Shown here: positions 24,657-26,982 of the stretch, piece by piece
How positions within the stretch are numbered: position 1 is the first letter of the stretch
How the letters are laid out: the number at the start of each line of letters is the position of its first letter
Source of the DNA: Fibrisoma montanum
Lineage (GTDB): Bacteria > Bacteroidota > Bacteroidia > Cytophagales > Spirosomataceae
Direction: 5' to 3'
Length of the DNA: 64,000 nt
Assembly (NCBI RefSeq): GCF_003583365.1
Contig: NZ_QXED01000001.1
Coordinates: 434,001 to 498,000 of the forward strand
Translations under genes and position numbers: made by a program
The notes under the pieces: model-generated
The model's database searches: none
Seen by the model: only the letters and a program-made list of their open reading frames with translations
What the model was told of the DNA's origin: nothing

Positions 24657-25940
24657 TTATCGGTCGTAGTTGGACCGGAATCGGTTCAGATCCGGCCGGA
24701 AAGGGCGCTTGCGTTTTACCTCATAGTCGTAGATGATCCGGCCCAGATTACCCATAAACGGCATACCGATGGAATCGTATTCGTACTTGTCGTCGTTGAA
24801 AATACCATCCTCATTCACGTAGATCACCGCCGACAGCAGAAACTCTACGTTCCGGTCGAAGTCAACAATATAGGCGTTATCAATCATGTACCCGTACGCA
24901 TCGCCCACCTTGTTGAAAATCCGGACGCCGTTCATCAGGGGCGTTTTCTGATCGCCCGCCAGCAGAAACTTGCAATAGCTGTCGTAATACGTCGAATCGT
25001 AGCGCGGATAGGTGGTTTCACGCGGCAACTGCGACAGGTACCGGTACAGAAACTGGTAGTCGTCGGTGGTGAGGTTGAAGCGCCGTTTGGCCGGCACGTC
25101 GTCGGGGAAGAGAACCGCCTTCAGCATTTCCTGCTGCTCTTCCAGGGCAAAAAAGTTTTTGTCGGTAAAGTCAAACGGCTGCCGAACCAGCGAATCCCGG
25201 CTCATATACCCTGTGCCGCGTTTGATGGCCGTAGCGGGCCGAAAAGTCTGCGAACAGGTTTTGGCGGGTTGCTCCAGCAGCGTCCGCTCGCCATCAACGA
25301 AACGTACCGGGTTAGTATGGCGGTTTTGCTCGGCCGTAAACGGTACCGACAACCGATGCACAATCCGCACATCCCGGTAGCCTTTGCGATAAAGCCGTTC
25401 GTTCATGTCGCACTGCCCAACGAACTCATACAGCCGGTTAAACGCGTCGTTATCGCTGACCAGCAGGATTTTTTTGGCGTAATGCGCCACCGACGGCAGG
25501 CCGTTTGGCGCGGTTGTGTCGCGCTGAACCATCGTCTGCCCATGACCAGCCGCCTGGGTCAGCATCACAGCATTTTTATCAATCTTTAGTTCATTCAGTT
25601 TTTCCAGCGCCAGCAGTACGGCAGGCAACTTGACCGTACTGGCCGGGTAGAAGTACCGGTCTTTATCAACACGGTAGCGGAAACTGCGGAAGGTCGGGCG
25701 ATTCTGCTGGTCACGGTTGATCTGCGTGTACAGAATCTGCACGTCGTATTTGGCCGGATTCCGGAGAACCGGCCCAAACAGCTCAGGGCTTTTGCGGAGC
25801 AGATCGTCGAGAAACTTGTCGGTCTTCTGCGCGTGGGCACCAAACGCAGAGAACGCAAAGAGCAGGCAGAGAACGCAGAAGTTACGCAGTGACCTCTGCG
25901 TTTTTTCTCTGCTACCCCTGCGTTGACGAAATAAATTCAT
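24657..25940 (-). CDS. Serine hydrolase of the class A beta-lactamase fold
   Basis: A 427-residue periplasmic protein with a beta-lactamase/transpeptidase-like domain. Motifs in order: SxxK as STVK (Ser101-Lys104), SDN (162-164), and KVG (344-346) in place of KTG. The signal peptide (residues 1-37, AHA before Q) has a basic n-region and a hydrophobic core. Unusually, both are encoded by complementary arms of a short-word repeat (see finding). The coding start overlaps the end of the upstream PLP transferase by 29 bp. With the dipeptide epimerase two genes upstream, a role in peptidoglycan or peptide turnover is plausible. True beta-lactamase activity is not implied by these motifs alone. Confidence 0.85.
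   Translation of the reverse strand: MNLFRQRRGSREKTQRSLRNFCVLCLLFAFSAFGAHAQKTDKFLDDLLRKSPELFGPVLRNPAKYDVQILYTQINRDQQNRPTFRSFRYRVDKDRYFYPASTVKLPAVLLALEKLNELKIDKNAVMLTQAAGHGQTMVQRDTTAPNGLPSVAHYAKKILLVSDNDAFNRLYEFVGQCDMNERLYRKGYRDVRIVHRLSVPFTAEQNRHTNPVRFVDGERTLLEQPAKTCSQTFRPATAIKRGTGYMSRDSLVRQPFDFTDKNFFALEEQQEMLKAVLFPDDVPAKRRFNLTTDDYQFLYRYLSQLPRETTYPRYDSTYYDSYCKFLLAGDQKTPLMNGVRIFNKVGDAYGYMIDNAYIVDFDRNVEFLLSAVIYVNEDGIFNDDKYEYDSIGMPFMGNLGRIIYDYEVKRKRPFRPDLNRFRSNYDR
25848..25930. repeat. Short-word inverted repeat inside the serine hydrolase signal peptide
   Basis: The plus strand reads ACGCAGAGAACGCAAAGAG and GCAGAGAACGCAGAAG, then CCTCTGCGTTTTTTCTCTGC and CCTGCGTTG. This is a purine-leaning word array followed by its reverse complement. 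Unlike most of the other hairpins it lies within coding sequence, over the junction of two overlapping genes. Confidence 0.75.
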
Positions 25941-26982
25941 TGATATGTTGAGCTAAACGTTCAATGTCTTCAGGTTCGTGGAAAGCACTAATGACCACGC
26001 GGGTATTGGCCCGGTCGGCTGCGGTAGGATACGCGAATGAATACAGAAAAATACCTTTCTCCAACAAATAAGGATAGAGTTCATCATGCTCGGTGTAAAA
26101 AACCGGATAGCCGGGGGCGTGTGTAAACCAACCGGTAGGCATCAGTAGCTCCTCAGCCAGTACCACATTCTGCCGCAGTTTTTCCCGCGCTTGCCGGTAG
26201 AGCTCATCGGCTTGCAGGTAGGCTTGCAGGTAAGCAGGCGGCATGGGCGAACACCCACCAAAGAATGGCGTCCGCCGGATAGCCCCGAGTGTCTCGGCAT
26301 CTCCCAGAATCACCCCGCCCGGCAAACCCATTGCCTTCGCCAGCGATGCCGTTACGAGTAGCTGAACCGACGGCAACCGGGGAATCTGTCGCCAGATACC
26401 GCTGCCCCCCTCGCCGATTATGCCCAAACCATGCGAATCGTCCACAACCAGCGTGATCGGTACGTCAGCGGGCAACCGGCTTACCCACTCGAACGAATAC
26501 GCCTGCGACCGAACTGCATCCAGCGAATTAAGCACGATGGCTACCCGCCCGACGGTTGCCACTACGTTCGGGATTTGCTCGACCCACTCGGCAAATGGAA
26601 TTGCCGGCAGTATCAGGTCAGGCTCGTGCCAAAGGGCGGGATGCGTGCTGGGTCCGTACACGAATTCGTACCGTTGTGCTCGTAAGTAATTGACTACGGC
26701 CTGCCCCGCCATCATGCCCGAGGAAAGCGTCAGGGCCGTTTCTGCGCCAACAAAAGCCGCGAGTTGTGCTTCGGCCTGCTGGTAGACCGCCAACTGCAGA
26801 TTTCCATTCCGTGAGCTGCCGAACGAAGTTCCGTAGCTACCGATGCTATCGATCAATACCTGCTGGAAAGCCGCGTTTTGCGGCAGCCCCAGGTACGCGG
26901 TTCCGCTAAAAAAAAGGTAGTGCTGTCCCTCATGCCGGATGGTTCGGCCCGGTAGGTGGTCAACGGTGAACGCAGTAGTCAT
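25912..26982 (-). CDS. PLP-dependent transferase, alpha-oxoamine synthase / BioF-like
   Basis: A 356-residue fold-type I PLP enzyme resembling 8-amino-7-oxononanoate synthase. Seen are GSYGTSFGSSRNGN (residues 48-61), the cofactor-binding DDSHGLGIIGEGGSG (181-195), and the Schiff-base Lys216 in TASLAKAMGLPGG. At 356 residues it is shorter than typical BioF (about 385). No other biotin genes are adjacent. Its neighbours are a dipeptide epimerase upstream and a serine hydrolase downstream, so it may be an acyl-CoA:amino acid condensing enzyme of another pathway. Biotin synthesis cannot be excluded. Confidence 0.78.
   Translation of the reverse strand: MTTAFTVDHLPGRTIRHEGQHYLFFSGTAYLGLPQNAAFQQVLIDSIGSYGTSFGSSRNGNLQLAVYQQAEAQLAAFVGAETALTLSSGMMAGQAVVNYLRAQRYEFVYGPSTHPALWHEPDLILPAIPFAEWVEQIPNVVATVGRVAIVLNSLDAVRSQAYSFEWVSRLPADVPITLVVDDSHGLGIIGEGGSGIWRQIPRLPSVQLLVTASLAKAMGLPGGVILGDAETLGAIRRTPFFGGCSPMPPAYLQAYLQADELYRQAREKLRQNVVLAEELLMPTGWFTHAPGYPVFYTEHDELYPYLLEKGIFLYSFAYPTAADRANTRVVISAFHEPEDIERLAQHINEFISSTQG

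Follow-up and report, generated by a model that had tools for sequence, protein, structure and literature searches.

Most signal-peptide codons of a serine hydrolase gene in Fibrisoma montanum are a full copy of an inverted-repeat family of about 82 nucleotides (nt). From the sequences compared here, it is highly probable that a hairpin of this family, whose usual site is the gap between genes, was captured as the n- and h-regions of a putative Sec-type export signal. The gene lies in the 64-kb stretch of DNA that we analysed (the window), taken from a 7.79-Mb genome of a genus of the Spirosomataceae (Cytophagales). It is a Beta-lactamase2-type hydrolase of 427 amino acids, read on the minus strand (24657..25940) from an ATG at 25940, with a match to PF13354 of 52.4 bits, above the curated cut-off of 22; the hydrolase of Fibrisoma limi is 93% identical. 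Directly upstream on the same strand is an aminotransferase gene (25912..26982; PF00155, 46.7 bits against a cut-off of 19.7), which overlaps the hydrolase gene and its start codon (25938..25940). In the window species the aminotransferase (ending ..SSTQG) has its stop codon at +16, within the hairpin element; in F. limi this gene ends at the very start of the element (locus L039, 3001-3025; window counterpart 25912-25924).

The complete element is 82 nt long (25843..25924, minus strand) and covers hydrolase codons 6-33; the covariance-model match runs from 25840 to 25927. Its purine-rich first arm (25884..25924, minus strand; QRRGSREKTQRSLR), identified by sequence, codons and words in the family spacing, encodes the basic n-region, and its pyrimidine-rich second arm (25843..25883, minus strand; NFCVLCLLFAFSAF), identified by sequence and codons, encodes the hydrophobic core, in which FCVLCLLFA is the best nine-residue window. 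The native remainder (25830..25842, minus strand) forms the c-region with an inferred cleavage site between AHA and Q, and it aligns with the Larkinella endings ..TTA or ..ARA before Q. Read from 25940 (ATG AAT TTA TTT CGT, and so on to TTC TCT GCG TTT), the minus-strand codons give SREKTQR and FCVLCLL exactly as the initial annotation wrote, and its proposal that both arms of an inverted repeat encode the segment stands, with a larger repeat than it stated. The region 25830-25945 has a folding energy of -45.8 kcal/mol, whereas its shuffled versions average -29.7 (z -4.85) and none of 200 reached the observed value. When ten other copies were used to build a covariance model, with the window copy excluded, the sole match of this model in the 64-kb window was the signal-peptide segment (44.4 bits, E=1e-8, model positions 1-84 of 84), and the copy in the F. 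limi orthologue scores 51.5 bits. Codon use within the element is foreign: three of its five arginine codons are AGA or AGG, compared with 37 of 933 in the long open reading frames (ORFs) of the window, some of which may be spurious.

The pattern CGCAGAG-N3-33-CTCTGCG occurs at 10 genome places, compared with 0 for the reversed control, and the window copy is absent from these because its spacing is wider. Two less clean patterns gave 29 matches against 11 in the control (CGCAGAG-N3-CGCAGAG, 2 mismatches) and 5 places against 3 (CTCTGCG-N3-33-CGCAGAG). The ten seed copies are 76-84 nt long with ends AACGCAG...CTGCGTT; in their alignment, 6 of 27 pairs changed on both sides, with 15 both-side cells against 5.0 in shuffles. 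Among the matches listed there are at least 25 distinct places in the window's own genome and at least 33 in F. limi. In being short and non-autonomous, with inverted repeats and several copies, the family resembles a MITE. A search of Rfam returned only four sub-threshold matches, and a limited literature search found no description of the family.

All family counts rest on 58 listed Fibrisoma copies, each of which was read (L176-L225, the window copy and L039). A co-directional ATG of a long ORF follows within 60 nt of the element in 48 of the 58 (median 9 nt), and for 46 of those 48 an upstream ORF of 150 codons or more could be identified. Relative to where the element starts, the stop of this ORF falls at -12 to +4 nt in 37 of the 46, at +16 to +36 in eight and at -143 in one. 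The view of the initial annotation that an intergenic-type repeat is the source of the segment is supported. The eight stops that lie 16-36 nt inside an element resemble the aminotransferase stop of the window. Some family copies may be read through as a C-terminal extension or lie inside a gene.

The window copy matches the model of this AACGCAGAG family over its full length, and it and the F. limi orthologue depart from the gap-located, untranslated habit of the family, since both are in coding frame. They alone among the 58 listed copies combine a start in the 60 nt ahead of the element, a frame that stays open across it and the lack of any start in the 60 nt that follow. The initial annotation had called for a scan for other signal peptides made from such repeats; by this test there were none among the other 56 listed Fibrisoma copies. 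In three candidates (L176_594581 and, in F. limi, L207 and L224) the frame is open through the element but a start lies within 60 nt past its end, and these were rejected. At two similar loci in the window's own genome (L126 and L127; C34:540136 and C37:146833), an arm-inverted hairpin stands just before a twin-arginine-like start, MKRRD, encoded by ATGAAACGCAGAGA, which includes the repeat's own word. Across that genome, the word AAACGCAGAG shows no excess at twin-arginine starts (M-K-R-R; 6 matches against 7 for the reversed control).

Of the 25 copies listed in the window's own genome, 21 are paired with a listed F. limi copy at the corresponding site, where the flanking sequences share 82.6-91.8% identity, and the remaining four may have counterparts beyond the matches listed. 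At eight of the 21 shared sites the outer arms are AACGCAGAG-like in the window's genome and ACCGCAAAG-like in F. limi, with both arms differing (for example, L177:1580-1662 and L212:2348-2432). The place between genes is kept at these sites, and the word looks as if it had been rewritten in concert in both arms.

Under stricter filters, the model has matches at E<=1e-4 in at least 25 of 61 genomes of the taxonomic family. Sixty copies read in ten other genomes (L244-L303, a set that leaves out at least six listed places in G033, G043 and, four of them, G009) share the hairpin architecture, and their words differ by genome or genus (AAACACAGAG in G054; TTACACAGAGTTNATCAGAG in G115 and G057). 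Possible signal-peptide use was flagged at five loci among these 60 copies (L248, L251, L252, L253 and L262), and two of them, L251 and L252, were rejected after the loci had been read.

Judged by hydropathy only, the hydrolase N terminus has the layout of a Sec signal peptide, with a basic n-region, a hydrophobic core and the small residues AHA before Q. The charge before the core is +6, a value kept in both Fibrisoma species. Core hydropathy (nine-residue Kyte-Doolittle mean) is 3.11 for FCVLCLLFA in the window and 2.72 in F. limi, and both values lie inside the span of the 12 scored orthologues (2.14-3.59).

Codons that are complementary to one another tend to have opposite hydropathy. We examined the polarity of the arms in the 56 Fibrisoma copies other than the two in coding frame, using both strands and three frames of each. 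A frame was called signal-like if it had a net charge of at least +2 in its first half and a nine-residue Kyte-Doolittle mean of at least 1.8 in its second, thresholds that were fixed by choice, kept and not calibrated on known signal peptides. There were 107 open frames among 336, and 30 of the 107 (28%) were signal-like, counts that include related copies and both strands of each copy and so do not consist of independent observations. Untranslated copies with an open, signal-like frame include the reverse strands of L189 in the window's own genome and of L198_481237 in F. limi. Dinucleotide shuffles gave a mean of 75.3 open and 2.2 signal-like frames, with at most 6 of the latter in 20 sets; with the arms swapped, 0 of 104 open frames were signal-like. 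Shuffling within each arm left 18.7 signal-like frames (sd 4.2; 17% of open frames), and the maximum in 200 sets, 32, exceeded the observed 30. Because per-arm shuffling keeps 17% compared with 28%, the composition of the arms counts for more than their exact words: the polarity effect is mostly one of purine-first, pyrimidine-second composition, to which the words add a smaller part. The initial annotation had held that the polarity of the repeat automatically gives charged and then hydrophobic residues. A strong tendency of this kind is present (30 of 107 against 2.2 of 75.3), but it is not automatic, as 229 of the 336 frames are closed.

The hydrolase ATG has the same position in nine of nine orthologues of the genus Larkinella, where it begins on the second base of the corresponding aminotransferase codon (EDIERLAQHI-N in Fibrisoma and EDIEQLGDFL-Y in Larkinella, 9/9 loci). 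The signal peptides that follow are unrelated to that of Fibrisoma (for example, MEKRGECNDNRRRWYVSVLATLLSLSGFQTTA, followed by Q). Given the same ATG and unrelated peptides, it is most likely, on this comparison, that replacement of the n- and h-regions took place along the branch leading to Fibrisoma. The initial annotation named as contrary evidence an orthologue with the same signal peptide encoded without a repeat; there was none among the orthologues read, and F. limi has the peptide together with the repeat. Signal peptides other than that of Fibrisoma were also read in five genomes of four further genera. The word GCAGAG/CTCTGC was absent from the 240 nt scanned in all nine Larkinella-genus genomes and in these five, a scan that leaves out one locus, L143. 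The aminotransferase is the upstream neighbour in nine of nine Larkinella-genus genomes and in G009, G026 and G029, and it was not found in the stretch examined for L036, L136, L138 and others. In a phylogeny of the mature enzyme, Fibrisoma (100/100) stands next to Larkinella (82/86, a fork that is not strong).

Signal-peptide length to AQ is 38 residues in Fibrisoma and 30-39 in seven hairpin-free Larkinella-genus forms, a similarity which argues that the old core was lost and not merely displaced. Larkinella lacks the element at this site, but as the old core was replaced too, its locus does not amount to a clean example of an empty site. None of the orthologues is an intermediate that carries the element together with the old core. 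Two Larkinella-genus loci, L131 (= G090) and L133 (= G099), carry an unrelated hairpin, CCCCTAAATCCCC...GGGGATTTAGGGG, in frame in the hydrolase n-region with the native core kept, and the surrounding 170 nt have folding energies of -68.7 and -74.5. Part of this hairpin sequence has 313 and 150 matches in those genomes and 2 in G115 (each overlapping match is counted, so the figures do not give copy numbers), and it has no match in G057 or the two Fibrisoma genomes. In two genera, the overlap of the hydrolase gene with its neighbour thus appears to have let a hairpin repeat into this segment.

One alternative is that the hairpin is retained chiefly for the structure it forms in the RNA shared by the aminotransferase and hydrolase genes, serving coupling, attenuation or stability, with the signal peptide as a by-product. 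The location of other copies between co-directional genes, the covariation of their arms and the good fold that the window copy still has all speak for this reading. We nevertheless judge it improbable, since the segment has no other source of n- and h-regions in frame and since the coding copies have the fewest canonical pairs. Across the 27 model pairs and the two strands, the window copy keeps 20 and 21 and the F. limi copy 21 and 21, so that their means (20.5 and 21.0) are the lowest of the 52 copies aligned, the next being 21.5, though one strand of L195 likewise has 20. This comparison covers 52 of the 58 copies, with L218 and L221-L225 left out, and favours the ten of the 52 that had built the model. 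Still less credible is that the arms merely look like a repeat because signal-peptide DNA tends to be purine-rich and then pyrimidine-rich. Much of the polarity effect is indeed arm composition, but an independent model is matched over all of its 84 positions at E=1e-8 and at one place only in 64 kb, and the F. limi copy matches it too; chance resemblance can almost be dismissed.

It is also very unlikely, somewhat more so than a role as RNA, that nothing is exported through the segment, either because translation starts elsewhere or because the N terminus is an inert extension. The unusually long and highly basic n-region fits such a reading, as does rapid residue change: the residues of the element segment show no conservation between the two Fibrisoma species, with 8 of 28 codons changed non-synonymously and 1 of 28 synonymously. 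Such a lack of conservation is common for signal peptides, yet would also be expected under weak constraint. Against this reading, the mature part is under strong purifying selection (18 non-synonymous and 102 synonymous changes in 389 codons), and the orthologues read have signal-like N termini at the same place. The reading frame holds no other start codon ahead of the mature enzyme; the next in-frame start lies beyond the element by 97 nt in the window and by 223 nt in F. limi, both inside the mature enzyme, which speaks against the downstream start that the initial annotation had named as a possible refutation. Over 428 positions, stop included, the alignment of the two proteins has no gaps, although the DNA alignment has compensating 1-nt gaps on either side of the element.

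We therefore favour capture of the hairpin as a signal-peptide segment. A hairpin of the family, whose place is just past one stop and just before the next start, would have come to the end of the aminotransferase gene, presumably by insertion. Because the hydrolase ATG already overlaps that gene, its end is inside the hydrolase signal-peptide codons, where the element would have remained open and in frame. As the first arm is purine-rich and the second its pyrimidine-rich complement, a basic stretch followed by a hydrophobic one would result, and the element and the old c-region would together form a complete putative Sec-type signal peptide. The ancestral n- and h-regions would have gone, the old core probably being lost later, and the hairpin-derived peptide would now direct export.

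If so, the locus offers a before-and-after case, with outgroups, in which the targeting signal of a conserved enzyme was rebuilt from a gap-filling hairpin repeat, and a concrete way for a protein to gain a new predicted export tag from repetitive DNA. Since the complement of purine-rich codons (charged, polar) is pyrimidine-rich codons (hydrophobic), one rightly oriented inverted repeat can supply both halves of a signal peptide, and copies that are not translated today make it possible to test whether signal peptides can originate from repeats. More tentatively, and with considerable doubt, purine-first inverted repeats in operon gaps might form a standing reserve of export signals, in which in-frame capture at a gene start yields an n- and then an h-region by complementarity, a recurrent route of signal-peptide renewal. 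Underlying this there may be a class of hairpins, so far undescribed, that fill gaps and stay in place, their word being rewritten genome by genome in both arms together.

Several known palindromic repeats resemble the Fibrisoma element in part. REPs of the GTAG and CGTC families are, as described in PMC3733652, palindromes found mostly between co-directional or convergent genes, and they can supply stop codons and occur in the 5' ends of ORFs. The Fibrisoma family differs in its ends (AACGCAG/CTGCGTT), its length of 76-84 nt and a word that varies between genomes, and its consensus ends lack the GTAG or CGTC tetranucleotide given there as defining for REPs (PMC3733652). Rickettsia palindromic elements (RPEs) have entered conserved Rickettsia genes without breaking the reading frame, and the proteins remain functional (PMC2229807, PMC10969869). 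By description, the Fibrisoma element shares with them its in-frame insertion into a conserved protein gene. RPEs are about 105-150 bp long, encode a conserved peptide and occur in many genes according to these accounts (PMC2229807, PMC10969869), whereas the Fibrisoma element is in one gene among the sites of the 58 listed copies (counted once per species), and there in the signal peptide. The closest precedent in the sources cited is the Yersinia RU-2/YPAL element in YPO1552 (Delihas 2007), likewise a small palindromic intergenic repeat in frame that supplies the first codons of a putative exported protein and part of its predicted signal peptide (PMC2759123, PMC2229807). In YPO1552, RU-2 spans nucleotides 1-90 and residues 1-30, and the signal peptide is predicted at residues 1-41 (PMC2759123). 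The Yersinia element is 168 nt long, and what it contributes to this putative protein is codons 1-30, which make up no more than a part of the signal (PMC2759123). The Fibrisoma element is 82 nt long, has no stated relation to RU-2/YPAL, and has most likely replaced the n- and h-regions of a widely conserved enzyme whose outgroups have other signal peptides. In-frame use of a palindromic repeat within a protein gene is thus already known in kind from YPO1552 and the RPEs, and the Fibrisoma case is a variant of it.
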